A stretch of 64,000 bases of DNA, taken from assembly GCA_902517615.1 (NCBI GenBank), contig CABYCY010000001.1, forward strand, positions 1 through 64,000. Direction: 5' to 3'. Below the pieces are notes generated by a model. It made no database searches. It was not told where the DNA came from and was given only the letters and a program-made list of their open reading frames with translations. The position numbers and the translations under genes are program-made. This DNA is from an uncultured Pelagibacteraceae bacterium. GTDB lineage: Bacteria; Pseudomonadota; Alphaproteobacteria; Pelagibacterales; Pelagibacteraceae. This document shows positions 41,352-58,563 of this stretch, piece after piece (position 1 is the first letter of the stretch; each line of letters opens with the position of its first letter).

Positions 41352-42051
41352 TACTTTTAAATTCTAGCATATCTTCAAAAGTGCACATTTCAGGTTTTGT
41401 AAGAGTAATTTTTGGAATTTTTTTACTAAATTCAGAAGCTAATTTCTTATTAAATTCAATTAAATTTTTTATTTCAATCTGATTAAGTTCTCTCAAGATA
41501 TATCCCAAAGTAATATGAAAAGTATATCTTTGATGGTTTTCAAATTTAATTTTTAATAGGCTGCTTAGTTCATCTCTACAATTTCTTAAAATTTTTTCAT
41601 CTTTCTCAGAAAAAGGTTCTAAAATAATACTGTAACCACCAAAAAACATTTTTAGTTTAAAATTAAATTCTTCTGGAAATATATAATTCTGAATTCTTTT
41701 ATTTAATTCAATAGCTATATCTTTATAATCCATTTCAGGGCCTATATCTGATGGCCAATAATTGCTGTTTTTTGTATTAAAATTGCAACAATCAAATAAT
41801 GTCATATGAAAACTGGATGGAGGTAAATAGAAATAAGTTTTTTTAGGATTAAAATTTTCTATTTTTTTTTGAAAACTAATTATCTCATCTGATAAATAAG
41901 TTTTTAAAGGAATATTGCAAATTATTGTACATCCTGGAAATGGTAAAGGATTTCCTTTGTCATCAAATTTATTTTCTGCACCTTTTAAAGTATGCCCTTC
42001 AAGTTTACCTGCTAAAAAATTTTCCTCATTAGTAATTATGTTTAAATCCAT
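41332..42051 (-). CDS. 2H phosphoesterase-like protein (DUF1868 type)
   Basis: 239 residues with two HxT motifs, SSFHMTLFD and YTFHITLGY, about 100 residues apart, the signature of the 2H phosphoesterase superfamily (LigT-like fold). These act on cyclic phosphates or RNA ends. The gene is last in the minus-strand series with glycerophosphodiesterase and the Ugp transporter, so a small phosphodiester substrate in phosphorus scavenging is plausible. Starts 9 bases after ugpQ-like gene ends. Confidence 0.75.
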   Translation of the reverse strand: MDLNIITNEENFLAGKLEGHTLKGAENKFDDKGNPLPFPGCTIICNIPLKTYLSDEIISFQKKIENFNPKKTYFYLPPSSFHMTLFDCCNFNTKNSNYWPSDIGPEMDYKDIAIELNKRIQNYIFPEEFNFKLKMFFGGYSIILEPFSEKDEKILRNCRDELSSLLKIKFENHQRYTFHITLGYILRELNQIEIKNLIEFNKKLASEFSKKIPKITLTKPEMCTFEDMLEFKSINLSNQ

Positions 42052-42060
42052 TAAAATAAA

Positions 42061-42984
42061 CTAGAACCATTTTATATTTTCTTTTTCACAAAGTTCCTTC
42101 AACCTTAGTGGATAATCTGTCATAATACCATCTACACCGTACTCAATCATTTTTAACATGTCGTACTCTTTATTTACTGTCCATACATTTACTGGCAAAT
42201 CTTCTTGATGAGAAATGTCGACTAGTTTTTTTGTAATGTCTTTTCGGTATGGATGCCAAGCTTTTCCACCTTCTGACTTTATAATTTTTGGTAATTCATA
42301 ATCTTCATAGAAAGGCAAAAAACTCATCCATGGAGATCTATTGTATATAGTTTTTTTAATTTTCATTCCCTTCACCTGTTGATAAGTTAAATATGCTCTT
42401 GATATTTCATGATATTGGTTTTTAATTTCCGTCAGGGTTCTCCAATCAAATGAAGAAACAATTATTTTATCTTTTAAATTTGATTTGTTTATCTCATTGA
42501 CAACTAATTTTACAGTATCTTCTGGAGAAGGTGTCAAATTTTCTTCATCTGGTGTAGATTTAATTTCTAAATTTATTAATAAATTTTCAGATTTATTTTT
42601 TTTAGACATTTCTAATAATTCAGAAAGTTTTGGTATTCTTTGATTTTCTAAATTTTTTTGGTTAATAAATCGTCTTCCATATCTAGACAATTTATTTATT
42701 GAACCTACATCAAACTTTAAAAGTTCTTCATAAGTTAAATCAAATATTTTTATATTTTCATCCTCTATCCAATTTCCTTCATTATCTTTTGTAAAACTTG
42801 GATCCAATCTAAAATCATGAGTAATAACTGGTTTAAGATCCTTAGAAATTAATATATCTGTTTCGTATGCATTAATATTATTTTTAAATAAATATTTGAA
42901 ACTTTCTAGAGTGTTTTCAGGAAGATCTCCTCTAGCTCCTCGGTGTCCGTAAATTTTTATATGATTTGGTTTACTTAAAATCAA
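42061..42984 (-). CDS. ugpQ: glycerophosphodiester phosphodiesterase
   Basis: 307 residues of the GDPD family: YGHRGARGDLPENTLESF with the catalytic His-Arg and Glu, ETDILISKDLKPVITHD with metal-binding residues, and INLEIKS. It lacks a signal peptide, so it works in the cytoplasm and cleaves imported glycerophosphodiesters to glycerol-3-phosphate and an alcohol such as choline or ethanolamine. It directly follows ugpC (2 bases). Confidence 0.92.
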   Translation of the reverse strand: MILSKPNHIKIYGHRGARGDLPENTLESFKYLFKNNINAYETDILISKDLKPVITHDFRLDPSFTKDNEGNWIEDENIKIFDLTYEELLKFDVGSINKLSRYGRRFINQKNLENQRIPKLSELLEMSKKNKSENLLINLEIKSTPDEENLTPSPEDTVKLVVNEINKSNLKDKIIVSSFDWRTLTEIKNQYHEISRAYLTYQQVKGMKIKKTIYNRSPWMSFLPFYEDYELPKIIKSEGGKAWHPYRKDITKKLVDISHQEDLPVNVWTVNKEYDMLKMIEYGVDGIMTDYPLRLKELCEKENIKWF

Positions 42985-42986
42985 AT

Positions 42987-44039
42987 TTAATTAACTCTTT
43001 TGCCGGTACTTTTATCAAAAATATAATATTTATTGTTCTCAATATTTAGACTTAGATTGGTACCTTTTTCAATAGTTTGATTTCCTGGACACCTGTAACA
43101 AAAGTCTTTTTTATCTTTCAATTGACCATAAACAAGATTATCCGAACCAAGTTGTTCCACTAAGTCTACTTTTAAATTAATTAAACCATTTTCAGTTTGA
43201 CTCAAATGCTCAGGTCTTATTCCTAATGTAACTTCTCCCTCAAAGTCACTATTAATATCTTTAATTTCAAAACCTTCTGCAGATAATGTTTTATTTTTTA
43301 AATTACCATCTAAAAAATTCATTTGTGGCGAACCAATAAAACCAGCAACAAATAAAGATTTTGGATTATCATATATCTCTATAGGGGTTCCTAACTGTTC
43401 AATAATTCCGTTGTTAATAACTGCTAATCTATCAGCAAGAGTCATGGCCTCAACTTGGTCATGTGTAACAAATATACTTGTTACTCCTACTTTCTGCTGA
43501 AGTTTTTTAATTTCAAGTCTCATCTGAATTCTTAATTTTGCATCTAGGTTTGAAAGTGGCTCATCAAATAAAAATATTTTGGGATTTCTTACAATTGCTC
43601 TGCCCATTGCAACTCTTTGTCTTTGACCTCCAGATAACATTGAAGGTTTTCTCTGTAGATAATCTGAAATTTGTAACAGCTTAGCTGCATCATTTACTTT
43701 TTTCTCGATTGTTTGTTTATCAATTCCTCTGTTCTTTAAACCATATGCTAAATTATTATAAACATTCATGTGTGGGTATAATGCATAATTTTGAAATACC
43801 ATTGCTACATCTCTTTCAGATGGATCAACTTCGTTTATTAATTTTCCTTCAAGATTGATATCACCCTTTGTAATATCCTCTAAACCTGCAACCATTCTTA
43901 ATAAAGTTGATTTTCCACATCCACTGGGTCCTACAAAAACCATAAACTCTCCTTCATTAATACTCAATGAAGTTTCATGGACGGCTTTAGTTCCGTTAGG
44001 GTAAATTTTTGTTACATTTTTTAAATCTAGAAAACTCAT
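42987..44039 (-). CDS. ugpC: sn-glycerol-3-phosphate-type ABC transporter ATPase
   Basis: 350 residues. Walker A GPSGCGKST at 37-45, signature LSGGQRQRVAMGRAI, Walker B IFLFDEPLSNLDAKLR, and the C-terminal TOBE-type domain (GIRPEHL) of the UgpC/MalK group. Zero spacing to the ugpE-like gene upstream. Energises the UgpABE-type importer. Confidence 0.93.
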   Translation of the reverse strand: MSFLDLKNVTKIYPNGTKAVHETSLSINEGEFMVFVGPSGCGKSTLLRMVAGLEDITKGDINLEGKLINEVDPSERDVAMVFQNYALYPHMNVYNNLAYGLKNRGIDKQTIEKKVNDAAKLLQISDYLQRKPSMLSGGQRQRVAMGRAIVRNPKIFLFDEPLSNLDAKLRIQMRLEIKKLQQKVGVTSIFVTHDQVEAMTLADRLAVINNGIIEQLGTPIEIYDNPKSLFVAGFIGSPQMNFLDGNLKNKTLSAEGFEIKDINSDFEGEVTLGIRPEHLSQTENGLINLKVDLVEQLGSDNLVYGQLKDKKDFCYRCPGNQTIEKGTNLSLNIENNKYYIFDKSTGKRVN

Positions 44040-44891
44040 TTATTTCTCCGTTTGAATTAAACCTTTTATGAACCATTTTTGCAAAATTACTACCACTAAA
44101 ACCGGTGGTAACATTGACAAAATAATATACGCAAATCTCTCAGCTGTTCTTGGAAGAGCAACACCCTCATAACTCTCAGTAAATATAATTTTCATTCCCA
44201 TTACAACCGTCCAATATTTTTCACTTGTAGTCATGATTAGTGGCCATAAATATTGACTATATCCATAAACAAACATGAATATAAACATAGCTGCAATCAT
44301 AGTTTTGGACAATGGAACTAAGAAATCTATAAAAAATCTCCAACTGTTTGCACCATCTAGTTTGGCTGATTCAAGTAATTCATCTGGAATAGTCCTATAA
44401 AATTGTCTAAAGAAAAAGGTTGCAGTTGCAGATGCAACTAAAGGAAGAATTAGGCCTGTGTAAGAATTTGTTAAACCTAAATCTGATACAATTTTATAAG
44501 TAGGAAAAATTCTTACTTCCAAAGGTACTAGCAAAGTAATAAAAATTAACCAAAAAATAGGTATAGCTAATTTAAATCTATAATATACCAGGGCATACGC
44601 TGACATTGCAGAAATAGTTACCTTAAGGGTTGCTATTCCTAATGCCATTATAAAGCTATTAATAAACATCTTTGCTGCAGTAACTTCTTCTGACCAGCCA
44701 CCTTTTTCATTTAAAACTTCATTATAGTTTCTTGAAAAATATTCACCTATATTAAATTTCATACCTTCAGTTAATATAGACACTGAATCATGAGTGGAAC
44801 TAGCAAAAGATATCCAGATAGGTACAACCATTAACAACACACCTAATATAAGAATTATATGAGCTAATATCTGAAGTGGTTTAATTTTCAT
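44040..44891 (-). CDS. ugpE: UgpE-like ABC permease (copy 1)
   Basis: 283 residues, six membrane helices, with the EAA-type coupling loop PDELLESAKLDGANSWRFF. It is very similar to the gene immediately upstream (44888-45709), with which it overlaps by 4 bases; this copy carries about ten extra residues (MKIIFTESYEGVALPRTAERF) before the last helices. One of the two forms the channel with UgpA, or each defines a different channel. Confidence 0.92.
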   Translation of the reverse strand: MKIKPLQILAHIILILGVLLMVVPIWISFASSTHDSVSILTEGMKFNIGEYFSRNYNEVLNEKGGWSEEVTAAKMFINSFIMALGIATLKVTISAMSAYALVYYRFKLAIPIFWLIFITLLVPLEVRIFPTYKIVSDLGLTNSYTGLILPLVASATATFFFRQFYRTIPDELLESAKLDGANSWRFFIDFLVPLSKTMIAAMFIFMFVYGYSQYLWPLIMTTSEKYWTVVMGMKIIFTESYEGVALPRTAERFAYIILSMLPPVLVVVILQKWFIKGLIQTEK

Positions 44892-45709
44892 TTATCTTGA
44901 AAAACTCCTTTAATAAAATGTTTTTGTAAAATGATTATAATTAAAACTGGTGGAACCATTGACATCATGACAAAAGCAAAACGATGAACAATTGATCCTG
45001 ACATCATTTTTAACCCCATAACGACTGTCCAATATTGCTCAGAAGAAGTTACTAATAATGGCCATAAATACTGGTTGTAACCAAAGACAAACATAAATAT
45101 CAACATGGCAACAATCATTGTTTTTGATAGCGGTACTAAAAAATCAATAAAAAATCTCCAAGTGCTTGCGCCATCAAGTTTGGCTGATTCAAGTAATTCA
45201 TCTGGAATAGTTTTATAAAATTGCCTAAAAAATAAAGTTGCTATAGCTGAGGCAGAAATTGGAACTATTAATCCAAAATAAGAATTTACTAGATTAAGTT
45301 CAGCCATAACTGAGTAAGTAGGAAAAATTCTTAACTCTAAAGGCACTAATATAGTAATAAATATTATCCAAAATAATAATGTGGCGTATTTTATTCTATA
45401 ATAAACTAAAGCATACGCAGCCATCAGAGAAGTCGCAACTGATAACAATGCTACTCCTGTAGCCATAATAAAACTGTTAAGAAACATTTTTAAAGCAGTT
45501 ATCTCTTTAAAAAAACCTCCCTTATACAATAAAACCCTTAAGTAGTTTTCTTGAAAACTATCACCTAAAAAAAACTGAAGACCGTTCGTGTTAATAAATG
45601 AACTTGTATGAGTTGAGCTAGCAAAAATCATCCATACAGGAACAACCATAATAGATATTCCTATAAATAAAATTATATGTGAAAAACTTGATGTAAATAA
45701 TCTACTCAT
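44888..45709 (-). CDS. ugpE: UgpE-like ABC permease (copy 2)
   Basis: 273 residues, tandem paralog of the neighbouring copy. It has the same coupling loop (PDELLESAKLDGASTWRFF) and shares a 35-base identical DNA run with it (45177-45211 and 44359-44393). It overlaps UgpA by one base and the next copy by 4 bases, so both copies are translated as part of one operon. Confidence 0.92.
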   Translation of the reverse strand: MSRLFTSSFSHIILFIGISIMVVPVWMIFASSTHTSSFINTNGLQFFLGDSFQENYLRVLLYKGGFFKEITALKMFLNSFIMATGVALLSVATSLMAAYALVYYRIKYATLLFWIIFITILVPLELRIFPTYSVMAELNLVNSYFGLIVPISASAIATLFFRQFYKTIPDELLESAKLDGASTWRFFIDFLVPLSKTMIVAMLIFMFVFGYNQYLWPLLVTSSEQYWTVVMGLKMMSGSIVHRFAFVMMSMVPPVLIIIILQKHFIKGVFQDK

Positions 45710-46587
45710 TAATTATAATGTATTTTTCCTTCGATGTATCTAAATTGAAAAATAGTAATCACTAAAACAATTAACATCATCATGATTGATTGAGCTCCAG
45801 CGCTTCCTAAATCTAGTCCTCTAAATCCATCCATGTAAGCTTTATAAACAAGGGTTCTTGTTTCTCCAGATGGTGCACCAATTGTTGTTGTATCAATAAT
45901 TCCAAATGTATCAAAAAAAGCATAAGTAATATTAATTATAATTAAAAAAAATGTTGTAGGCATCAATAGTGGAAATGTAATTGTCCAGAATCTTCTAAAA
46001 CTACTTTTGCAATCAATCATAGATGCCTCTATTACAGATACTTGAATAGCCTGAAGTCCTGCTAAGAAAAAAATGAAGTTAGCACTAATTTGCTTCCAGG
46101 AACCAGCTATGATTACATAAATATATGCATCAAAAACACTCTCATACCAATTGAAGCCCCACATATCATTGAATAAATGATATAGAAGTCCAAATCTTTC
46201 ACTAAAAAAATAATTAGCCATAACACCCACAACAGCTGGTGCAATAGCATATGGCCAAATTAAAAGAGTTTTATATGCACTTTTGCCGTGCATAATATTG
46301 TTTGCCTGAACTGCAAGCAATAATCCTATAGCACCCGTTATTAACGTGATTACAAAACTATAAATAATAGTAAATTTAAAAGCTGTTTTATAAGCTGGGT
46401 CATCAAAAATAAAAAGAAAGTTATCAATTCCTGCAAATTGAACACTTATTCCAAATGCATCTTGCATTGTAAATGCATCTCTAAAAGTTTGTATTATTGG
46501 CCAATATAAAAAAATTAATAATATACCTAGCTGTGGGGCTAAGAATAAATATTGAGTATAATTAGATTTAAATTGAACCTTTTTCAT
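45709..46587 (-). CDS. ugpA: UgpA-like ABC permease
   Basis: 292 residues, six membrane helices, with the sugar-permease family pattern FLAPQLGILLIFLYWPIIQTF near the start and coupling loop EASMIDCKSSFRRFWTITFP. It partners UgpE. It starts 58 bases after the binding-protein gene, with a GC-rich hairpin between. Confidence 0.92.
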   Translation of the reverse strand: MKKVQFKSNYTQYLFLAPQLGILLIFLYWPIIQTFRDAFTMQDAFGISVQFAGIDNFLFIFDDPAYKTAFKFTIIYSFVITLITGAIGLLLAVQANNIMHGKSAYKTLLIWPYAIAPAVVGVMANYFFSERFGLLYHLFNDMWGFNWYESVFDAYIYVIIAGSWKQISANFIFFLAGLQAIQVSVIEASMIDCKSSFRRFWTITFPLLMPTTFFLIIINITYAFFDTFGIIDTTTIGAPSGETRTLVYKAYMDGFRGLDLGSAGAQSIMMMLIVLVITIFQFRYIEGKIHYN

Positions 46588-46603
46588 ATATATAAAAACA
46601 ATA

Positions 46604-46627
46604 AGGAGGGTGTTTTAATACCCTCCT
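46604..46627 (-). terminator. hairpin between UgpB-like and UgpA-like genes
   Basis: 8-base GC-rich stem, AGGAGGGT at 46604-46611 and its complement at 46620-46627, with an 8-base loop, in the gap after the binding-protein stop. On the minus strand it is followed by TTATTGTTTTT. It fits a partial terminator or 3' stabiliser, as in the other three ABC operons here. Confidence 0.75.
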
Positions 46628-46645
46628 CATCAATACTTTTTTTAT

Positions 46646-47953
46646 TTATAGAGTTTTAGCAAATTGTTTTAACAATTTAGCTGCACCCTTATCCATGTTC
46701 TTCAATCCTTTTTCGATTGATATTTTACCATTTAACATTGGCTCAACATTTTCATAAATTACTTCACGAATTTGTGGCCAGTTACCAGCTCTATATCCAC
46801 CTGGAATTGTCGAACCTTCCAAGCTTAGTTGTTCACCAACAGCTTTGTGATAAGGAGAAGTTCTATAAAAGTTAATAGTCTCAGCTAAAGCTATACCACC
46901 TTTAGTTACGGCAGAATATCCTGTCATGTTATGATAATACAAATCCATTTCAGGAGAACCCATAAATTCAATAAATTTAGCAAGTCCTTTATATTCTTCT
47001 TCCGTATGACCATTTAAGATCCAGTTAGCGGCACCACCAATAAATGTTGGATACTCTTTACCACCAGTTACAGAATCCCAATAAGGAATATGATTAACTG
47101 AAAAGTTAGGTACAACACCTTTCATTCCACCGAATGATGCTGCAGAACCAAACCAGAAAGCAGCTTCACCAGCTATAAAAGGAGCTTGATTGTCTCCCCA
47201 TGCTCTACCTTTGTAGCCATATAAACCACTGTCATACCATTCTTTAACTTTTTTCCAGTGCATTACGAATGCATCTGTTTCAGCAAATAAAGTTTTAGTT
47301 GGAACAGCATCGTAACCATTGTTTCCATCAGTCATTAACAAGTTATGTCTTGAAAAGAAATTTTCAGTCCAAATCCATGGAAAGTGACTTTGTACTAAAG
47401 GAATGTATCCAGCAGCTTTAATTTTTGGAGCCATAGCCTCAAACTCTTCATAAGTTTTTGGCACTGATTCAATTCCTACTTTTTTCAATATGTCCATGTT
47501 TGCATACATTAAACAAGTTGAACTATTGAAAGGCACACCAATCATTTTTCCATCAGAGTCAGCATAGAAATTTTTAATTCCAGGAATATAATTATCTGCA
47601 TCTACATTAATTCCATATTTCTCTGCCATTTCTTCGAAACCAATGACAACACCATTTTTAACTTGAGCCACCATTATTGCAGCACCAGCATCGTAAACCT
47701 GTGAATAGTGTGGTTGGTCTCCCGCTCTAAATGCAGCAATAGTTGCCGCCATGTTATCTTCATAACTTCCTTTACCTGTAGGAATGACCGTATATTGATC
47801 TTGTGAAGCATTAAATCTATTTGCAATTTCAATAATTACATCACCAAGAAAACCACTGTTTCCGTACCACCAATGAATTTCGGTCTTTGAGTAGCTGTGT
47901 GATGTAAAAGAGAATGTAAATAGAATTGTTAAAATACTAAGTATTTTTTTCAT
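46646..47953 (-). CDS. ugpB: UgpB-like ABC substrate-binding protein
   Basis: 435 residues with signal peptide (about 1-22) and the UgpB start TEIHWWYGNSGFLGDVIIEIANRFN. Further UgpB-type features are GKGSYEDNMAATIAAFRAGDQPH, VPFNSSTCLMYAN and the WPQIREVIYENVEPMLNGK end. Periplasmic binding of glycerol-3-phosphate or glycerophosphodiesters is expected from family and from the neighbouring glycerophosphodiesterase. Good RBS (AGAGGT) in front. Confidence 0.92.
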   Translation of the reverse strand: MKKILSILTILFTFSFTSHSYSKTEIHWWYGNSGFLGDVIIEIANRFNASQDQYTVIPTGKGSYEDNMAATIAAFRAGDQPHYSQVYDAGAAIMVAQVKNGVVIGFEEMAEKYGINVDADNYIPGIKNFYADSDGKMIGVPFNSSTCLMYANMDILKKVGIESVPKTYEEFEAMAPKIKAAGYIPLVQSHFPWIWTENFFSRHNLLMTDGNNGYDAVPTKTLFAETDAFVMHWKKVKEWYDSGLYGYKGRAWGDNQAPFIAGEAAFWFGSAASFGGMKGVVPNFSVNHIPYWDSVTGGKEYPTFIGGAANWILNGHTEEEYKGLAKFIEFMGSPEMDLYYHNMTGYSAVTKGGIALAETINFYRTSPYHKAVGEQLSLEGSTIPGGYRAGNWPQIREVIYENVEPMLNGKISIEKGLKNMDKGAAKLLKQFAKTL

Positions 47954-48072: not shown

Positions 48073-49200
48073 TTAATAACTTTTAAGGTATTTTAATCTT
48101 CCTATTATTTCATCTCTATCCATGTAATAGCCTTGAAGATGTCTATGACCTGAATTGGGATCAAACTCAGTTCTTCCATGAAGTAATCTTCTGTTGTTAA
48201 ATGAAAAAATATCTCCTGGCTCTAATCTAAAATTAATTTGAAATTTAGCATCATGTAATAAATTTCCAAATCGATGATGAGCTTTATAAACTGAGTCCAT
48301 TATATCTGGATGGCAATCAAGAGCATCTAGTGTTGCAATACTATAACGAATATCATTGTAATCTCCGTCTTTAGTGAGTGATATTGCTGTGCCATAAAAA
48401 CTTCTTACTGCTTCTTGAGTATAGTCTTTATCTCTAAATTTAAGTGGAGTATTTACCAATATATCAAAAGTATCTTTTTCGTTGTTTTTTAAATAATCTG
48501 CTACAGCAAATGCATCTACAGCTGATGAGTCACCACCCTTCGCTGAATTTATTAAACAGTGTAAAAATTGGTAACCAGGTGGATTTTCAAACCAAGGTAA
48601 ATCCATATGATTTCTTAAAGCGTGCGCTGTATATGCAGAATTATTTGGTTTTGGAATATTAATTACTTCAAAAGGTGTTTTAAAAAAAGTTTCTCTAGTG
48701 TGACTTATGCGGTTTAAAACTTTTAATGCAGAATTTTTTTCTACTGGAGCATTTTTAACAATGGCTATTCCAGTATAATGTAAAAGCTCTAACCATTTAA
48801 TCAAACCATCATCAGAGTTTATAATTTCATCATGATTAATATGAATAGATTTTAAGTTATTTTCTAAAGAACTGTCCCAAAGTTTGTAAGGTGAAACATA
48901 CTGTTGTTTATTTTTTAATGTATAACAGTTCGCCCTTAACCATTTAGGGTCATAATGACTTGTATGATCTCCTTCACTCCATTCAATTTGTAATTTTCCA
49001 TCAGTGTTTATTGAATATTTTTTTGGATTAATATCTTGAGAAACATTTAAAATATTAAACATTCTATGTCTTGAGTCTTTATCGTGAGCGGTCGGACAGT
49101 TATCTCTTAGCCAAAGATAATTAAATTTACTCTCTTCACCATCATTCCATATAATTTTTAAATATGTTGAATTTTTCTCAAGTTTAGAAATTAAGCTCAC
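48073..49200 (-). CDS. gamma-butyrobetaine hydroxylase-like Fe(II)/2-oxoglutarate oxygenase
   Basis: 375 residues, two domains: an N-terminal DUF971-like part (WLRDNC at 30-35) and a TauD-type oxygenase domain with iron ligands His198-x-Asp200 (HMDLPWFENPPGYQF) and His341 (RRLLHGRTEF). Family members hydroxylate gamma-butyrobetaine to carnitine, trimethyllysine, or (TmpA) trimethylaminoethylphosphonate. Two of the zinc cysteines of human BBOX1 are absent (CPTAHD in place of CxCxxC), so the N-terminal zinc site is probably lost. Divergent from the ProX-like gene and near carnitine-breakdown genes, favouring a quaternary-amine substrate. Confidence 0.85.
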   Translation of the reverse strand: MSLISKLEKNSTYLKIIWNDGEESKFNYLWLRDNCPTAHDKDSRHRMFNILNVSQDINPKKYSINTDGKLQIEWSEGDHTSHYDPKWLRANCYTLKNKQQYVSPYKLWDSSLENNLKSIHINHDEIINSDDGLIKWLELLHYTGIAIVKNAPVEKNSALKVLNRISHTRETFFKTPFEVINIPKPNNSAYTAHALRNHMDLPWFENPPGYQFLHCLINSAKGGDSSAVDAFAVADYLKNNEKDTFDILVNTPLKFRDKDYTQEAVRSFYGTAISLTKDGDYNDIRYSIATLDALDCHPDIMDSVYKAHHRFGNLLHDAKFQINFRLEPGDIFSFNNRRLLHGRTEFDPNSGHRHLQGYYMDRDEIIGRLKYLKSY

Positions 49201-49332: not shown

Positions 49333-50349
49333 ATGAAGTTTTTAAAGAGATTAACAATCTCAATTTTCCTTCTTTCATCTTTGATTGTAAGTAATGCAAA
49401 CGCTGGTGATTGTAAGGCGAGATTGGGAGATTTTGACTGGAGTAGTGCTAACATACATACAGCAATCACTACCTTTATCTTAGAAAAAGGATATGGTTGT
49501 GAAGTTTCTGTTATAAAAGGAAGTACTACACCTATAATGGCTGCTCACTATGATAAGCAGTTAGATGTAATAACTGAAGTTTGGTATGACAACATTATTG
49601 CTAATTACGAGCCACATGAAGCGGCTGGTACTATTATTAATATTGGAGTTAACACTCCCGATTCACAACAAGCTTTCTATGTAGATAAAACAACAGCTGA
49701 TAAATACAATTTAAAGTCTGTTGAAGATATGAAAGATCCAAAAATAGCTGCACTATTTAAAGATCCTGAAGATCCATCAAAAGGTAGAATGACTAGCTGT
49801 ATATCTGGTTGGACTTGTTATACTGTAAACTTGGTTAAACAAATAGAGTATGGTTTAGATAAATACTATACTAATTTTGATCCGGGCTCAGGTGGAGCAT
49901 TAGACGCTGCTATTGCAGGAGCTTTTGCTAAGAAAAAACCAATATTTACATACTACTGGGCACCAACTGGTTTAATGGGTAAAGTTGATCTTGTTAGACT
50001 TACAGAACCAAAATTTGATTCTGATTGTTGGAATTCTATGTCTGCAGTTGTTGAAGATATTAAGGCAAATGGACCAGATGCTTATAAGAAAAGCTGCGCA
50101 TGTGAATATAGAGATATGGCTTTGACAAAATCTGTTTTAACTGATTGGGCGAAAGCTAATCCTAAAGAAACTGATTTCTTAAAGAAATACACTATTCCAA
50201 CAGCTACAGTTAACAAAATGTTAGCATTTTATGAAGATGAGTCAGATGGTGATATGGAACTTACCGCGATGCACTTCTTAAAAAATGAAAGCATGTGGAA
50301 AGATTGGGTGCCAGCAGACGTTGCTAAAAAAGTTAGCGCCGCTCTATAA
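49333..50349 (+). CDS. proX: ProX/OpuAC-type quaternary-amine binding protein
   Basis: 338 residues with signal peptide (about 1-24, ending NANAG). The OpuAC fold is visible: LGDFDWSSANIHTAITTFIL, KGSTTPIMAAHYDKQLDVITEVW, FTYYWAPTGLMGK. Ligands of this family are glycine betaine, choline, carnitine or butyrobetaine, held by aromatic cages. The mature protein is rich in cysteine (eight, in GDCK, GYGC, SCISGWTC, DCWN, SCAC), suggesting disulfides. First gene of an importer operon beside carnitine genes, so carnitine or butyrobetaine is a reasonable ligand guess. Confidence 0.9.
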   Translation: MKFLKRLTISIFLLSSLIVSNANAGDCKARLGDFDWSSANIHTAITTFILEKGYGCEVSVIKGSTTPIMAAHYDKQLDVITEVWYDNIIANYEPHEAAGTIINIGVNTPDSQQAFYVDKTTADKYNLKSVEDMKDPKIAALFKDPEDPSKGRMTSCISGWTCYTVNLVKQIEYGLDKYYTNFDPGSGGALDAAIAGAFAKKKPIFTYYWAPTGLMGKVDLVRLTEPKFDSDCWNSMSAVVEDIKANGPDAYKKSCACEYRDMALTKSVLTDWAKANPKETDFLKKYTIPTATVNKMLAFYEDESDGDMELTAMHFLKNESMWKDWVPADVAKKVSAAL

Positions 50350-50371
50350 TCCAGTATTTTAAATAATTATT

Positions 50372-50393
50372 AAAGAGCCCTTCGGGGCTCTTT
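50372..50393 (+). terminator. UUCG-tetraloop hairpin after the ProX-like gene
   Basis: Perfect 9-base stem AAAGAGCCC (50372-50380), loop TTCG, right arm GGGCTCTTT (50385-50393). The UUCG tetraloop makes it very stable; only a short T run follows. It lies between the binding-protein stop and the permease start (50414), so it should reduce read-through or protect the upstream mRNA. Confidence 0.88.
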
Positions 50394-50413
50394 CTTTAAG
50401 TAAAAAATAAATT

Positions 50414-51445
50414 ATGGAAGCATTAAAGAAAAACAAAAAAATAATTTTTAATATTGGATTGTTAGTAGTTTTTGTTTGGCTATTAGTCACTAGCTATTCT
50501 CAATCAAAGAGAAAACCTGATAATATTGGAGAATTATTAAATGATTTTTCTTGGTTAGGGGGTAAATGGCCAAAGTGGCTAGATTTACCATTGATGAATT
50601 GGATCAATGTTGGTTTTAAAACACTTAACGAAAAATATGGATACATATTTGAAGCTATAAATAACGTTCTTCTGTATATGTTAATGCTTGTAAAAAACTT
50701 TTTAATTCAAGCTCCATGGCCATTAGTTATCCTTGGTGTAGTAGTTCTAGCTTATTTTGCAAGTGGTAGAAAAGTTGGAACAACAGTATTTGTAGGATTT
50801 TGCACTTTTTTTATAGGTTTTCTTCACCCAATATTTTGGCAAAAAGCAATTGAAACAACTGCAATAATGTTAATTGGAATATTTCTTTGTGTTGTTGCAG
50901 GCATTCCATTGGGAATAGCAATGGCAAGAAGTGCAAGAACAAGAAATATCATTTTGCCAGTTTTAGATTTAATGCAAACTATTCCGAGTTTCTGTTACTT
51001 AATTCCAGGTATTATGTTGTTTGGTTTGGGCGCAGTTCCAGCAATTATAGCCACTTTTATTTATGCAGTTCCTCCTTTAGTTAGACTTACAGATTTAGGA
51101 ATTAGATTGGTCGATACTGAGGTTATTGAAGCCGCAGATGCATTTGGCGCAAGTAAAAAACAAAAGCTATGGGGAGTACAAATGCCATTAGCTTTGCCAA
51201 ATATAATGCAGGGTATAAATCAGTGTACAATGATGGCATTAGCTATGGTTGTTATTGCATCAATGATAGGTACTAGAGGTTTAGGGGATGAAGTTTTACT
51301 TGGTCTCCAACAATTAAATGTGGGAAGAGCTGCTGAAGCAGGAATTGCAATTGTACTTTTAGCAATAGTTCTTGATAGGATAACTCAATCTTATGGAGAA
51401 ACACTACAAGAGAGAACAGCACCAAATACAAAGAAAGGTAAATAA
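50414..51445 (+). CDS. proW: ProW-like quaternary-amine ABC permease
   Basis: 343 residues. A soluble N-terminal part with one early membrane segment leads to the permease domain with PVLDLMQTIPSFCYLIPGIMLFG and the coupling loop EVIEAADAFGASKKQKLWGVQMPLALPNI, both typical of ProW. It ends one base into the ProV start. It forms the homodimeric channel for betaine-like solutes. Confidence 0.93.
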   Translation: MEALKKNKKIIFNIGLLVVFVWLLVTSYSQSKRKPDNIGELLNDFSWLGGKWPKWLDLPLMNWINVGFKTLNEKYGYIFEAINNVLLYMLMLVKNFLIQAPWPLVILGVVVLAYFASGRKVGTTVFVGFCTFFIGFLHPIFWQKAIETTAIMLIGIFLCVVAGIPLGIAMARSARTRNIILPVLDLMQTIPSFCYLIPGIMLFGLGAVPAIIATFIYAVPPLVRLTDLGIRLVDTEVIEAADAFGASKKQKLWGVQMPLALPNIMQGINQCTMMALAMVVIASMIGTRGLGDEVLLGLQQLNVGRAAEAGIAIVLLAIVLDRITQSYGETLQERTAPNTKKGK

Positions 51446-52470
51446 TGTCTAAAATTGAGATTAATAATGTTTATAAAATCTTTGGCAACAATCCTCTATC
51501 AGTAATGCCAATGGTAAAGAATGGTGCAAATAAAGAAGATGTATTAGAACAAACTGGTCATACTGTTGGACTTGATAATGTTTCATTAAAAATAGAAGAA
51601 GGTGAAACTTTTGTTTGTATGGGTTTATCTGGCTCAGGAAAATCAACTCTAATCAGGCATTTAAATAGATTAATCGATCCTACTGACGGTGAAATCATCG
51701 TAGAAGGAAATAATGTTATGTCTTTTGACAAAGAACAATTAATAGATTTTAGAAGACATAAAATGAGTATGGTATTTCAAAGATTTGGTTTATTTCCACA
51801 TAAAACAGTTATTCAAAATGTTGGGTATGGATTAGAAATGCAAGGAAAACCATTGGAAGAATTAAATAAGATTGCCATGGAAAAAATTGAAGCAGTTGGT
51901 TTAAATGGTTTTGAAAATCAATTTCCAAATCAATTATCAGGTGGTATGCAACAACGTGTTGGTCTTGCAAGAGCTTTGGCAACTGATAGTGATATAATGT
52001 TAATGGATGAGGCTTTCAGTGCTTTAGATCCATTAATAAGAAGTGATATGCAGAAACAATTGCTTGATCTTCAATCGGAATTAAAAAAAACAATCGTATT
52101 TATTACACATGACTTAGATGAATCTTTAAGACTTGGAGATCACATTGGTATATTAAATGCTGGAAAATTAGTTCAGGTTGGAACTCCTGTTGATATTATT
52201 ATGAACCCAGCAGATGATTATGTTAAAGCATTTGTTAAAGATGTTAATAGAGCAAAAGTAATTAAAGCTAAAATTATTATGAAGAATGTAAATGAAGCTA
52301 ATGATATTGACAAATCTAACCTAATAAAAGTTAATGAAGATCAATTTATAGAGGAATTTTTACCACAAATTGTATGCTCGAATTCTAATTGCGAAGTAGT
52401 TGACAAAAGTGGAAATGTTAAGGGTTATATATCTAATAAAGAATTACAGACATCCTTAACAAAATCATAA
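51445..52470 (+). CDS. proV: ProV-like quaternary-amine ABC ATPase
   Basis: 341 residues. Walker A GLSGSGKST at about 60-68, signature LSGGMQQRVGLARAL, Walker B DIMLMDEAFSALDP, and the ProV-type Q-loop region SMVFQRFGLFPHKTV. The C-terminal 70 residues form a short CBS-like region, shorter than in E. coli ProV (about 400). Followed after 3 bases by the short-chain dehydrogenase gene. Confidence 0.93.
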   Translation: MSKIEINNVYKIFGNNPLSVMPMVKNGANKEDVLEQTGHTVGLDNVSLKIEEGETFVCMGLSGSGKSTLIRHLNRLIDPTDGEIIVEGNNVMSFDKEQLIDFRRHKMSMVFQRFGLFPHKTVIQNVGYGLEMQGKPLEELNKIAMEKIEAVGLNGFENQFPNQLSGGMQQRVGLARALATDSDIMLMDEAFSALDPLIRSDMQKQLLDLQSELKKTIVFITHDLDESLRLGDHIGILNAGKLVQVGTPVDIIMNPADDYVKAFVKDVNRAKVIKAKIIMKNVNEANDIDKSNLIKVNEDQFIEEFLPQIVCSNSNCEVVDKSGNVKGYISNKELQTSLTKS

Positions 52471-53263: not shown

Positions 53264-53662
53264 TTACCTAAGTTTTTTTTCATATTTCTTTCTTAGTCTT
53301 TGAAGATCCACTAGGTATTGATCTCTTATATTTGAAATTTTTATAATAGATTTTCCTTTTGCTTGTTTCTTTGTTCCTGAAATAAGTCGAGAAGATAGTT
53401 TTTTAGAAAGTTTTGGTGCTTTTAGTTTGGTCCAAGGTAATTTTAAAGCAGGACCAAATTGTTCAAGCATATGTTTCATACCTGTTTTTCCACCTGCAAG
53501 ATGAAAAGTTAAAAATGTTCCCATTAACGACCATCTTAGTCCTGGTCCATCTTCAATTGCTCTATCTAAATCCTCTGTGGTTGCATACCCTTCATTAATA
53601 ATATGTAATCCTTCTCTCCATAAAGCTTCCTGCAATCTATCAGACAAATATCCAGGTAATTC
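53264..53662 (-). CDS. L-carnitine dehydrogenase, C-terminal part (after frameshift)
   Basis: In-frame coding from the frameshift point reads ELPGYLSDRLQEALWREG and onward through GPGLRWSLMGTFLTFHLAGG and FGPALKLPWTKL, the substrate and dimer domain of carnitine dehydrogenases (3-hydroxyacyl-CoA dehydrogenase C-domain type). About 132 residues. It has no good start of its own (a TTG at 53647 with no Shine-Dalgarno), so it is best seen as the downstream half of the gene at 53661-54206. Removing one A from the A7 run at 53664-53670 joins both into about 313 residues, the family's usual length. Confidence 0.8.
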   Translation of the reverse strand, partial: ELPGYLSDRLQEALWREGLHIINEGYATTEDLDRAIEDGPGLRWSLMGTFLTFHLAGGKTGMKHMLEQFGPALKLPWTKLKAPKLSKKLSSRLISGTKKQAKGKSIIKISNIRDQYLVDLQRLRKKYEKKLR

Positions 53663-54206
53663 ATTTTTTTACCATTATTGGATTCATGGATATAGATTTG
53701 TAAAACTTTTTTGCTAAATTCAAATTTTTTGCCAATGTTTTTTTACCAGGTACTATTTCTACTGCAGGTAAAAGATAAGCAGGATTAAAGGGATGTCCAA
53801 TTATTCCTCTTTCTGGATTTTTGCATTTTGAATAAATTCTAGTTGGCAACAAACCAGAAGAACTTGAAGATATTATTGATTTTGGTTTTGAATATCTTCC
53901 TATAACGTTCATCAACTTTGTTTTTAAAGAATAGTTTTCTGAAGCACACTCTTGAATAAAATCAGCATCTTTTAAAGTTTCTTCTATTGATGTGAAAAAA
54001 TGAAAGTTATTTAAATTTAATTTTTTTTTATTAAATAGTTTTTTTACAAATGGCCAAGTTCTTTTAATTTCTAAAATTAAATTCTTTTTTAATTTAAAAT
54101 CCTTGTCAAATGCATAAACAATCTTATTGTGTGCTAAACAACGTATGATCCACCCTGCTCCAATCACCCCTGTTCCAATAACTGCAACTTTTTTAATTGA
54201 TGACAT
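53661..54206 (-). CDS. L-carnitine dehydrogenase, N-terminal part (before frameshift)
   Basis: 181 residues with the NAD-binding Rossmann domain VAVIGTGVIGAGWIIRCL and the active-site region SSSSSGLLPTRIY, IIGHPFNPAYLLPAVEIVPG, characteristic of carnitine dehydrogenases. It ends prematurely at a TGA right after GTA AAA AAA. The next frame continues the protein exactly where expected. The gene overlaps the BKACE stop by one base. The product, if whole, oxidises L-carnitine to 3-dehydrocarnitine with NAD. Confidence 0.82.
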   Translation of the reverse strand: MSSIKKVAVIGTGVIGAGWIIRCLAHNKIVYAFDKDFKLKKNLILEIKRTWPFVKKLFNKKKLNLNNFHFFTSIEETLKDADFIQECASENYSLKTKLMNVIGRYSKPKSIISSSSSGLLPTRIYSKCKNPERGIIGHPFNPAYLLPAVEIVPGKKTLAKNLNLAKKFYKSISMNPIMVKK

Positions 54207-55140: not shown

Positions 55141-55608
55141 ATGTCAGTACATATAGCAAATCAAATTATCAAAAAAGAGTGGACAGATTACAACAATCAC
55201 ATGAACATGGCTTACTACGTTATGGTTTTTGATCAAATTTGGGAAAACATGCTTGAAAAATTTATGATGGGAGAAAATTCAGCTAAAACTAATAAACGAA
55301 GCACTATGGTTGTAGAAACTCACACAACATATAATAATGAGGTTAAACAAGGAGAAGAAGTGGAGATTAATGTTACTTTTTTTGATCATGATAAAAAAAG
55401 ATTACATTTTAAGCTAGAAATGATTGAAACAACTTCTAGAAAATTATCAGCAACATTAGAGTCCTTATCTCTATATATTGATTTAGAAAAAAGAAAAGTA
55501 ACAGAATTTGAAGATGATAAAATAAAACTAATGAATAATTTTATTCAAGAAAATAAATCAAATTTTAAAAACGACAATTTAGTAATAAATGGAAAATTAA
55601 AAAAATAA
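55141..55608 (+). CDS. hot-dog thioesterase, probable betainyl-CoA thioesterase
   Basis: 155 residues of the 4-hydroxybenzoyl-CoA thioesterase-like hot-dog fold, with WTDYNNHMNMAYYVMVFD at residues 15-32 holding the active-site Asp-Asn-His-Met cluster. In carnitine catabolism a thioesterase of this type releases glycine betaine from betainyl-CoA. It sits next to BKACE and carnitine dehydrogenase. Its stop overlaps the next start by one base, coupling it to the TauD-family gene. Confidence 0.85.
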   Translation: MSVHIANQIIKKEWTDYNNHMNMAYYVMVFDQIWENMLEKFMMGENSAKTNKRSTMVVETHTTYNNEVKQGEEVEINVTFFDHDKKRLHFKLEMIETTSRKLSATLESLSLYIDLEKRKVTEFEDDKIKLMNNFIQENKSNFKNDNLVINGKLKK

Positions 55609-56441
55609 TGGAAATTAAATTATTATCAGGAGCTTTAGGTGCGGAAATAAAAGGAATTGATTTAACAGATGTTTCTAATGAAAATTTTAAAAAAATTAAT
55701 AATTTATTACTAGAACATAAAGTAATTTTTTTTAGAAATCAGCCTATTACTAAAGAACAACAAATTGCACTTGCTGAAAAATTTGGTCCTCTGGAAACTC
55801 ATGCTTATGTGAAAGGTTTAGATAGTTATCCTGAAATAGTTAGAATTATAAAAGGTAAAGAGGAAAAAAACCAATGGGGAGAAAATTGGCATAGTGACGT
55901 AAGCTATAATGCAAAGCCAACCAAAGCTGTAATACTAAAATCATTAAAAATACCTCCAGTTGGCGGCGACACCTGTTTTTCTAATATGGAATTAGCTTGG
56001 GAAACTTTAGACCCTAAATTACAAAAAAAAGTAAAAGATAAAAAAGCAATTCATAGCTCTCTTGGGGCAGAATTTTTCATTGATAACTACAAATATATGG
56101 AAGGAAATAAGAAAAGAAATTACGACTCTTATTCTAACGAACATCCTATCGTTAGAACACATCCTGAAACAGGCAAGAAAATTTTATTTGTTAACTGGAC
56201 TTACACAAAACAGATTATTGGTATGAAGAAAGAAGAAAGTGATCAAATATTAAAAAATATATTTGAGCATCAAGCAAGATTAGATCTTACTTGTAGATTT
56301 AGATGGACTGAAAATACTGTTGCTATATGGGATAACCGAAGTGTTATTCATTATGCTATTGCCGATTTTTTTCCAGGACGAGGTTTGGGTTATGAAAGAG
56401 TAATGGATCGTATTGCAATTGAAGGTGACCACCCACAATAA
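55608..56441 (+). CDS. TauD/TfdA-family Fe(II)/2-oxoglutarate dioxygenase
   Basis: 277 residues, TauD fold. Iron ligands His95-x-Asp97 (WHSDVSY) and His248 (SVIHYA), with FRWTENTVAIWDNR and Arg-containing FFPGRG for 2-oxoglutarate binding. The N-terminus GALGAEIKGIDL is typical. TauD relatives hydroxylate sulfonates, phosphonates, sulfate esters or amines. It is directly followed, after 5 bases, by a PhnZ/TmpB-like HD oxygenase, so it may make the alpha-hydroxyphosphonate that the HD enzyme cleaves; this pairing with a TauD-type enzyme is inference. Confidence 0.9.
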   Translation: MEIKLLSGALGAEIKGIDLTDVSNENFKKINNLLLEHKVIFFRNQPITKEQQIALAEKFGPLETHAYVKGLDSYPEIVRIIKGKEEKNQWGENWHSDVSYNAKPTKAVILKSLKIPPVGGDTCFSNMELAWETLDPKLQKKVKDKKAIHSSLGAEFFIDNYKYMEGNKKRNYDSYSNEHPIVRTHPETGKKILFVNWTYTKQIIGMKKEESDQILKNIFEHQARLDLTCRFRWTENTVAIWDNRSVIHYAIADFFPGRGLGYERVMDRIAIEGDHPQ

Positions 56442-56446
56442 TTTAA

Positions 56447-56983
56447 ATGCAAATTATTGAAAAAATAATATCAAATTTCACAAATAATAAATCACTCTAT
56501 ATTGGTGAAAAAGTCACCATGTCGGAACATATGATACAGACCGCTATGCTTGCTGAAAAAGCTAAATGCAATGATGAGTTAGTTTGCTCTTGTCTTTTGC
56601 ATGATTATGGTCACTTCATTTTAGAAAAACCTGATGAACTTGTCGAGCTAAAGGTTGATGGAGAGCATGAAAATATAGCTTATGAATATTTAAAAAGTTT
56701 TTTTAAAAAGGAAATAGTAGAACCCATAAAATACCATGTAGTTGCAAAGCGTTATTTAGCAAGAGATAAAAAGTATTACAATCAACTTTCGGAAGCTTCA
56801 AAAATAAGCTTGAGTCTTCAAGGAGGAGTATTGAATGATGGTGAGAGTAATAAATTTGAGTCTCAAGAATATTTTAAAGCTTCAATTCTTTTAAGAAAAT
56901 TTGATGAAGCGGCAAAAAGAATAGATATTAAAATGAAATCTATTCATGACTACCAAAAATTGCTATCGTCAAAACTTATATGA
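56447..56983 (+). CDS. PhnZ/TmpB-like HD-domain mixed-valence diiron oxygenase
   Basis: 178 residues. It aligns in my memory with PhnZ along its whole length: YIGE (Tyr18, Glu21), then His28, the HD pair His52-Asp53 (LLHDYGH), His74 in DGEHE, His97 and Lys101 in YHVVAKRYL, QGGVLNDGE, and Asp153 in KFDEAAK. These match the six iron ligands plus the substrate lysine and lid residues of PhnZ. PhnZ and TmpB split alpha-hydroxyphosphonates oxidatively to phosphate plus an acid (glycine or glycine betaine). It overlaps the GMC gene by 4 bases. Not an HD phosphohydrolase by these residues. Confidence 0.82.
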   Translation: MQIIEKIISNFTNNKSLYIGEKVTMSEHMIQTAMLAEKAKCNDELVCSCLLHDYGHFILEKPDELVELKVDGEHENIAYEYLKSFFKKEIVEPIKYHVVAKRYLARDKKYYNQLSEASKISLSLQGGVLNDGESNKFESQEYFKASILLRKFDEAAKRIDIKMKSIHDYQKLLSSKLI

Positions 56984-58563
56984 AATTTGATTATATAATC
57001 ATTGGTGCAGGATCAGCTGGGTGTGTACTTGCAAATCGATTATCTGAAAATAGCCAAAATAGTGTTGCTGTTTTTGAGGCAGGAAAAGGAAGTGATATTT
57101 GGAAAGTTAACATGCCACTTGCAATTCTTTATACAATGCATGATCCAAACTATAACTACAAATATTATTCAGAACCGGAGCCACACCTAAATAATAGAAG
57201 ACTATTTTGTCCAAGAGGAAAAATGATAGGTGGATGTTCAGCTCATAATGGAATGGTTTTTGTTAGAGGAAATCCAAACGACTATCAAAGATGGGCATCT
57301 TTTGGATTAGAAGATTGGTCTTATGAAAAAGTTCTTCCTTATTTCAAAAAAATTGAAACATGGTCTGAAGGAGAAAATGATTATAGAGGAGGAAGCGGAA
57401 TACTTCCAGTAAATCAATCTAAAAATAAAAATCCTTTATTTAAAGCATTTGTCGACTCAGCTGGTGAGGCTGGTTACAAAATTAATGATGACATGAATGG
57501 TAAAGAACAAGAAGGCTTTGGAATGTATGACGTTACTATACATAAAGGTGAACGAGCTAGTGTTTCTAAATATTATTTAAATCCTGCAAAAAAAAGAAAA
57601 AATCTTAAAGTATTTACAGAAGCTTATGTTGAGAGAATTATTTTTGAGGGAATAAAAGCAATTGGGATTGAGGTTAAAATTAAAAATAAAGTTGAAAAAA
57701 TTTATGCAAATAAAGAGGTTATTTTAAGCGGTGGTGCAATTAATTCTCCCCAGCTACTTATGCTTTCAGGAATTGGTCCAAGCCAACACCTAAAAGATAA
57801 AGGAATTAATGTTGTTCACAACTTAGAAGGGGTGGGAAAAAATTTACAAGATCATTTAGAAACCTATGTACAACAGGAATGTAAAACGAAAGATACTTTG
57901 TATTCTTATGTGAATAAAATTAATATGATTAGAATAGGTATCCAATGGTTTCTTAATAGAAGTGGCCCTTGTTCTACTTCTTTCTTAGAGGCTGGAGGGT
58001 TTTGTAAATCTTCACCTGAACGAAAATATCCAAATATTCAATTTCATTTTTTTCCTGCTTTTGTGATTGATCATGGTTTAGTGGATCCGGATAGACATGG
58101 TTATCAATTGCATGCTAGTCCAAACCATCCAAAAAGTAGAGGTCTTATTACTTTAAATAGTTCAAATCCATATGATTATCCAAAAATTCAATTTAATTAT
58201 CTAGAACATGAAGATGATTTAAAGCAAACAATAGAATGTATTCATATAGCAAGAAAAATCTTGGGACAAAATTCTTTAAAACCATTTGCAGGTAAAGAAA
58301 TTGGACCAGGAGATCATGCTCAAACTAATGAGGTATTTGAGGAATATATTCGCTCAAAAGCTGAGACTGCTTATCACCCATCTTGTACATTAAAAATGGG
58401 AGTTGATAGCATGGCAGTAGTTGATCAAAAACTAAAAGTTAATGGTGTTGAAAATTTAAGAGTAGTTGACGCTTCTGTAATGCCTGAAATTACAAGTGGT
58501 AACTTGAATGCCCCAACTTTAATGATTGCTGAAAGAGCATCAGAATTTATTTTAAATTCTTAG
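56980..58563 (+). CDS. betA: GMC-family oxidoreductase, choline dehydrogenase-like
   Basis: 527 residues, full GMC family: FAD-binding DYIIIGAGSAGCVLANRLSE, GGCSAHNGMVFVRGNP (first GMC signature), SGGAINSPQLLMLSGIGP (second signature), and C-terminal active-site His in AYHPSCTLKMG with NAPTLMIAERASE. BetA oxidises choline to betaine aldehyde; other members use different alcohols, so the symbol is by family. Coupled to the HD gene by a 4-base overlap and fits a route feeding glycine betaine. No dedicated betaine aldehyde dehydrogenase adjoins it. Confidence 0.85.
   Translation: MKFDYIIIGAGSAGCVLANRLSENSQNSVAVFEAGKGSDIWKVNMPLAILYTMHDPNYNYKYYSEPEPHLNNRRLFCPRGKMIGGCSAHNGMVFVRGNPNDYQRWASFGLEDWSYEKVLPYFKKIETWSEGENDYRGGSGILPVNQSKNKNPLFKAFVDSAGEAGYKINDDMNGKEQEGFGMYDVTIHKGERASVSKYYLNPAKKRKNLKVFTEAYVERIIFEGIKAIGIEVKIKNKVEKIYANKEVILSGGAINSPQLLMLSGIGPSQHLKDKGINVVHNLEGVGKNLQDHLETYVQQECKTKDTLYSYVNKINMIRIGIQWFLNRSGPCSTSFLEAGGFCKSSPERKYPNIQFHFFPAFVIDHGLVDPDRHGYQLHASPNHPKSRGLITLNSSNPYDYPKIQFNYLEHEDDLKQTIECIHIARKILGQNSLKPFAGKEIGPGDHAQTNEVFEEYIRSKAETAYHPSCTLKMGVDSMAVVDQKLKVNGVENLRVVDASVMPEITSGNLNAPTLMIAERASEFILNS

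Follow-up and report, generated by a model that had tools for sequence, protein, structure and literature searches.

A PhnZ/TmpB-like HD oxygenase gene adjoining a TauD-type dioxygenase gene in a SAR11 quaternary-amine island

In the 64,000-nucleotide stretch of DNA analysed here (the window), a gene for an HD-domain oxygenase of the PhnZ/TmpB family follows directly on a gene for a TauD-type dioxygenase. We tentatively propose that the HD protein is an accessory member of a quaternary-amine cassette of SAR11 bacteria, that it is probably fed by the TauD-type protein, and that it cleaves a quaternary-amine hydroxyphosphonate, although the chance that this proposal fails as a whole is considerable. 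The HD gene would be an accessory gene for a PhnZ/TmpB-type diiron oxygenase, inserted between the TauD and GMC genes of a thioesterase-TauD-GMC cassette. The hydroxyl group would most likely be added by the adjacent TauD-type dioxygenase, and the HD protein would most likely cut the C-P bond of the 1-hydroxyphosphonate, a substrate that probably carries a quaternary amine, giving phosphate and a betaine-type acid.

The gene island and HD loci outside SAR11

The window lies on contig C1 of a 1.32 Mb genome that is 91% complete, and the closest loci with a taxon name, which share its gene order, belong to Pelagibacteraceae (SAR11). Both ORFs lie where the original prediction had placed them, with 5 bases between TauD and HD, and the HD gene overlaps the GMC gene by 4 bases. 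The genes of the island are listed below.

48073..49200, - strand: BBOX-type dioxygenase, gamma-butyrobetaine-like (375 aa; 317 bits with TIGR02409 versus 269 with the TmpA model)
49333..52470, + strand: glycine-betaine/proline-type ABC transporter (ProX, ProW, ProV), candidate uptake system (binding protein OpuAC E 7.1e-44; the other two genes named by eye)
53264..54206, - strand: L-carnitine dehydrogenase in two ORFs (53661-54206 and 53264-53647), each half matching PRK07066
54206..55093, - strand: BKACE beta-keto acid cleavage enzyme (Pfam BKACE E 1e-91)
55141..55608, + strand: 4HBT_2 thioesterase, likely betainyl-CoA thioesterase (155 aa; Pfam 4HBT_2 E 1.7e-24)
55608..56441, + strand: TauD-type Fe(II)/2-oxoglutarate dioxygenase, candidate hydroxylase partner (277 aa; Pfam TauD E 9.5e-59)
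56447..56983, + strand: HD-domain oxygenase, PhnZ/TmpB family (178 aa; TIGR03276 168 bits, TmpB model 150 bits)
56980..58563, + strand: GMC oxidoreductase, choline-dehydrogenase-like (527 aa; PRK02106 745 bits, cut-off 605)

The flanking genes also agree with the prediction. The upstream thioesterase aligned with positions 345-475, the C-terminal part of the carnitine 3-dehydrogenase PRK07531, a match that likely corresponds to a fused betainyl-CoA thioesterase, and the downstream GMC protein is choline-dehydrogenase-like by its PRK02106 score and reached 676 bits with the BetA model, under the cut-off of 732. The glycine-betaine-type ABC transporter and the BBOX-type hydroxylase, which lies about 7 kb from the HD gene and scored under the cut-offs of both TIGR02409 and TmpA, are additional to the genes named in the prediction, and an SDR gene is also located in the island upstream of the thioesterase-TauD-HD-GMC genes. 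The surroundings of TauD and HD are those of a quaternary-amine island (butyrobetaine, carnitine, glycine betaine and choline-like compounds). Judging from the gene families, a route from butyrobetaine through carnitine to glycine betaine would be encoded here, and from its context BKACE would act in dehydrocarnitine cleavage. In many relatives L-carnitine dehydrogenase is a single ORF of 313-314 aa, and its split in the window is either a recent break or an assembly error. Next to the island, at 41332-47953 on the - strand, a Ugp-type ABC transporter, a glycerophosphodiester-phosphodiesterase-like gene and a gene for a 2H-like protein (all named by eye) hint at the use of glycerophosphocholine.

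Among 385 alphaproteobacterial genomes, a set that includes that of the window, 88 encode a TIGR03276-type HD protein. We took 98 alphaproteobacterial HD loci outside Pelagibacterales, leaving out the window itself and four partial matches, and 97 of them were clustered. A TmpA-type gene is directly upstream of HD in 26 of these loci, and 16 have the setting of a C-P lyase operon by label. By BLAST, an adjacent ORF matching the window or E. coli TauD was found in none of the 98 loci, read with flanks of at most 5 kb and less where a contig ended, and in none of the 28 places read out of 38 in a phylum sample, with flanks of about 1.5 kb and four places already among the 98, a test that would miss more divergent TauD relatives; three of the 98 have a TauD-family ORF 2 to 4.5 kb from HD. 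Since no adjacent TauD was seen in these 98 and 28 loci, the TauD-HD adjacency is a SAR11 feature in these samples. At two loci, L175 and L189, a TmpA gene whose product exceeds the cut-off of 400 (529 and 528 bits) stands ahead of HD, BBOX-like, BKACE and carnitine dehydrogenase genes as matched by BLAST, the BBOX-like protein of L175 scoring 329 bits with BBOX versus 298 with TmpA. These rows are in line with the predicted quaternary-amine setting and support the view that such HD enzymes serve quaternary-amine phosphonates beside a carnitine-to-betaine route. Distant HD genes were also present in 28 plasmid records, and two HD-like loci (L289 and L290) were found on viral contigs. L289 (2732-3370 of a 35 kb IMG/VR contig) has an ALDH-like, a TmpA-like and an HD gene one after another and no TauD match; either a phage carries a TmpAB-like module here or the label of the contig is wrong.

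Family and active-site residues of the two proteins

In a PDB search the HD protein matched TmpB (6npa, E 3.6e-30) and PhnZ (4mlm, E 7.6e-27), and no other solved structure at E up to 1. The six iron ligands (His28, His52, Asp53, His74, His97 and Asp153), together with Tyr18, Glu21 and Lys101, align with both structures and are invariant in 88 of 88 SAR11 copies, a redundant set of loci with an HD of at least 165 aa (shorter or truncated ones dropped, some genomes fetched twice) that was aligned with 16 TmpB-core proteins and 87 others. Tyr18 and Glu21 form the YxxE lid, described in one study as a PhnZ/TmpB-type feature absent from inositol oxygenase (PMC8177086). No match to inositol oxygenase was obtained in Pfam, NCBIfam or PDB at the thresholds used, and an identity as inositol oxygenase or HD phosphohydrolase is without support among these matches. 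The predicted place of the protein in the PhnZ/TmpB family was thereby upheld.

The curated models set limits to its name. The protein scored 167.8 bits with TIGR03276 (phosphonate degradation HD oxygenase, hypothetical equivalog; cut-off 214.6), 150.3 bits with the TmpB equivalog model NF049941 (cut-off 300) and 136.2 bits with the PhnZ1 hydroxymethylphosphonate dioxygenase model NF052439 (cut-off 300), and the latter two cut-offs rule out the names TmpB and PhnZ1. On present sequence evidence, the description "PhnZ/TmpB-like" holds, and neither PhnZ nor TmpB as a name does. The protein probably cleaves C-P bonds as an oxygenase like PhnZ and TmpB, within a subclade that has no name of its own, presumably by diiron chemistry and on a phosphonate substrate. 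Met29 and Phe57 resemble the TmpB core (Met in 16/16, Phe or Tyr in 16/16), and the C-P-lyase-associated HDs mostly have Ala (13/16) and Leu (15/16) at these positions. Tyr54 is present in 88/88 SAR11 HDs and was not seen in the other groups, in a comparison that did not include four rows labelled PhnX and one row of the C-P-lyase group. The median dN/dS of HD is 0.042 (highest 0.25; 942 pairs of redundant loci), indicating that the gene is under purifying selection and kept functional.

In a tree of 123 rows, the SAR11 HD clade stands alone (SH-aLRT 99); the alignment and tree by which the original prediction was to be checked gave a separate clade with all ligands kept. A grouping of this clade with the TmpB core was not rejected in a topology test that left out eight long or outlying rows (p-AU 0.48), and another tree run took a random part of the other rows. 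A grouping with L028 was not rejected either (p 0.68), and one with all TmpA-labelled rows was rejected (p 1.4e-4), the TmpA label itself not forming one clade. L028 is a distant Pelagibacterales HD adjoining a PhnX-like ORF (named by eye). It is one of several other Pelagibacterales HDs of about 40% identity, of which L028-L031 stand beside a PhnX-like ORF (by eye) and L277 is about 4 kb from a PhnD-type gene, and this is a more classical phosphonate setting within Pelagibacterales. Contig C2 of the window's genome encodes one more HD-like protein (L276 5974-6531; 185 aa, about 28-33% identity), a relative of which (L084) adjoins an ORF resembling glutamate-cysteine ligase by eye.

The neighbour of HD is TauD-type by its Pfam match, and neither PhyH nor BBOX/TmpA, as predicted. 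It is 34-44% identical to TauD-family proteins found outside Pelagibacterales, and by sequence it qualifies for the broad TauD/TfdA Fe(II)/2-oxoglutarate dioxygenase family (HxD...H triad, 2-oxoglutarate Arg). We compared 76 distinct orthologs, each 265 aa or longer, against E. coli TauD. The equivalents of the metal triad and 2-oxoglutarate Arg (His99, Asp101, His255 and Arg266) and of His70 and Arg270 were invariant in all 76, and every one of the 76 has Trp, Gly and Val in place of Asp94, Asn95 and Tyr73. According to a structural source, taurine is bound by His70 and Arg270 of TauD, and its amine is positioned by Asp94, Asn95 and Ser158 (PMC9304159). Because His70 and Arg270 are kept and Asp94, Asn95 and Tyr73 are replaced, the SAR11 TauD looks like an enzyme whose anionic end is kept and whose primary-amine end is changed, a pattern that would fit a substrate with an anionic head group and a non-taurine amine end. 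His70 by itself does not name the substrate, since three TauD homologs outside Pelagibacterales also have it. The name taurine dioxygenase is ruled out by these replacements and by the score with PRK09553 (228.7 bits, cut-off 313). The 59 TauD sequences with HD and the 17 without it are identical at all positions that bind the metal, 2-oxoglutarate or the anion; Trp248 is Leu in 2 of the 17 without HD.

Coupling of TauD and HD and the rival explanations

Within SAR11 the two genes are spaced tightly and more regularly than chance would give, with a gap of 0-5 bases in 78/78 loci that have them side by side, and the HD/GMC overlap is 4 bases in 86/86 loci measured. Among 121 genomes (G000-G120, same genus where listed, most of them incomplete), 19 have both genes, 4 HD only, 16 TauD only and 82 neither, HD being counted at 60% identity or more; HDs of about 40% identity in G054, G097 and G120 are uncounted, and two of these genomes are in the TauD-only 16. 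TauD thus occurs in 19/23 HD genomes versus 16/98 others (Fisher p 2.7e-9, a value that ignores ancestry and the sharing of one locus by both genes), and the co-occurrence by which the original prediction was to be checked is seen within the genus, though the adjacency is absent from the alphaproteobacterial and phylum samples outside SAR11.

Other observations speak against a strict pair. First, 16 of the 35 TauD-bearing genomes lack HD, and 4 of the 23 HD genomes lack TauD, two of these (G023 and G066) having HD at a contig end. Second, we read 20 of 60 full-length TauD ortholog places (at least 63% identity), selected mainly for the absence of HD. Twelve contain the complete thioesterase-TauD-GMC cassette and no HD, TauD has other surroundings in two (G017 and G119), and one (G022) contains HD; the remaining five form a second family without HD, thioesterase or GMC, in which the neighbouring ORF matches a DMT permease by BLAST in three. 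Third, TauD is gone from G010 and G089, where the gene order is thioesterase-HD-GMC, and in G071 TauD is interrupted and HD whole. Finally, HD presence changed at least 4 times among cassette-bearing rows of a 32-row TauD tree, and G020 has a cassette without HD and a separate HD, 60% identical to that of the window, at the start of another contig. Separately, 10 of the 12 cassettes without HD, and both of those without TauD, have an HpcH/CitE-type lyase gene immediately upstream of the thioesterase gene (L013 168-1028, L225-L243).

An obligate TauD-HD pair is ruled out, since each gene is found without the other. The coupling put forward in the original prediction retains the co-occurrence and tight gaps in its favour, but it does not stand as worded, because HD survives the loss or break of TauD and the active-site residues of TauD are the same with or without HD. 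TauD is likely the partner of HD, not an obligate one. It must have another role where HD is absent, as it is kept in many relatives without HD, and this use of its own would possibly be a sulfonate or another zwitterion.

The main rival is a TmpAB pathway in trans, in which TauD belongs to the cassette without taking part, and HD cooperates with a TmpA-like second BBOX protein whose gene lies elsewhere in the window's genome, on contig C13 (G000:C13:6726-7829). This protein scored 345 bits with TmpA versus 269 with BBOX but is under the TmpA cut-off of 400. TauD-less G010 and G089 both have the TmpA-like gene, and the grouping of HD with the TmpB core, as given above, was not rejected. In G020 a relative of it is near HD with one permease gene between, yet on the strand opposite HD. 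Its spread is also independent of HD (16/23 HD genomes versus 66/98 others, p 1.0), and it is missing, or in G071 broken, in 7 of the 23 HD genomes, though these are incomplete. As the sole HD partner it was rejected for this lack of co-occurrence; as a rival we keep it, and regard it as rather unlikely.

It is distinctly unlikely that the substrate of HD is a compound of the island other than a phosphonate, such as a hydroxylated compound made by the TauD or GMC enzyme, and that HD cleaves it in the way inositol oxygenase cleaves a C-C bond. The constant HD/GMC overlap, the unmet curated phosphonate-HD cut-offs and the rarity of a PhnD-type phosphonate-binding protein, encoded in just one of the 23 HD genomes, that of the window (contig C5), are in its favour; the invariant YxxE lid and Lys101, common to PhnZ and TmpB, and the lack of inositol oxygenase matches noted above are against it. 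It is very improbable that HD is an ordinary PhnZ whose pathway degrades 2-aminoethyl- or methylphosphonate with a PhyH-type protein from elsewhere in the genome as the hydroxylase: PhyH-family proteins are encoded in 21/23 HD genomes (five in the window's own), but none lies within 15 kb of HD by coordinates in the 23 genomes, G010 and G113 have none at all, and the match of HD to TmpB is better than that to either PhnZ or PhnZ1.

We return to the preferred reading of an accessory HD oxygenase fed by TauD, with a quaternary-amine phosphonate as the substrate suggested by neighbours and residues. It is supported by the complete ligands, lid and Lys, the TmpB-like Met29 and Phe57, the gaps of 0-5 bases and the dN/dS of 0.042, and opposed by the HD-less cassettes, HD without TauD, the unchanged TauD residues, the at least four HD changes, G020 and the rarity of PhnD. 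A bolder form, which we consider doubtful, is that SAR11 bacteria hydroxylate a quaternary-amine phosphonate with TauD, as a third hydroxylase family. On its own TauD would act on a sulfonate, the hydroxylated form of which decomposes spontaneously, and phosphorus would be obtained from the phosphonate analogue only with the accessory HD. In that case HD would be an exchangeable add-on through which a route for a sulfonate or osmolyte becomes a supply of phosphate.

Significance and comparison with known systems

In the parts of the literature searched (PMC8177086, PMC10574752, PMC9381506, PMC6581173, PMC12636525, PMC12478193, PMC9304159), a search outside which most subscription papers lie, no TauD-PhnZ/TmpB pair was found. 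According to a marine survey (PMC9381506), 45% of marine phnZ sequences belong to Pelagibacterales, and phnZ is taken there as a gene specific for 2-aminoethylphosphonate, which favours the ordinary-PhnZ explanation. Since the SAR11 HD clade is located in a quaternary-amine island, scores under all curated cut-offs and has a different neighbour enzyme, such phnZ counts may name the wrong substrate for it. If TauD feeds HD, it would be a third hydroxylase family that starts oxidative C-P cleavage, and the natural genomes with and without HD would allow a test of this step.

Compared with the TIGR03276 HDs of C-P lyase operons, the SAR11 HD belongs to the same broad family, but it is under the cut-off and differs at positions 29 and 57, and none of ten island proteins scanned with Pfam and NCBIfam is a C-P lyase protein. 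With the taurine dioxygenase TauD, the SAR11 TauD shares the facial triad, the 2-oxoglutarate Arg and the His70 and Arg270 equivalents, but differs in score (228.7 versus 313) and at Asp94, Asn95 and Tyr73, which are Trp, Gly and Val. With the PhnY/PhnZ system for 2-aminoethylphosphonate and PhnZ1 for methylphosphonate, the SAR11 HD has family, ligands and lid in common, whereas a PhyH-type partner, of the family to which PhnY belongs, is not near it and its PhnZ1 score is 136 bits versus 300. TmpA and TmpB convert 2-trimethylaminoethylphosphonate to glycine betaine and phosphate. The SAR11 system differs from them in that its hydroxylase is TauD-type rather than BBOX-type TmpA, with no TmpA next to the window HD, its HD scores 150 bits versus the TmpB cut-off of 300 and forms a separate clade, and the pair is not obligate. 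It resembles them in the family of its HD protein, which has the full set of ligands and the YxxE lid, in a 2-oxoglutarate hydroxylase next door, and in a quaternary-amine neighbourhood like that of L175 and L189.
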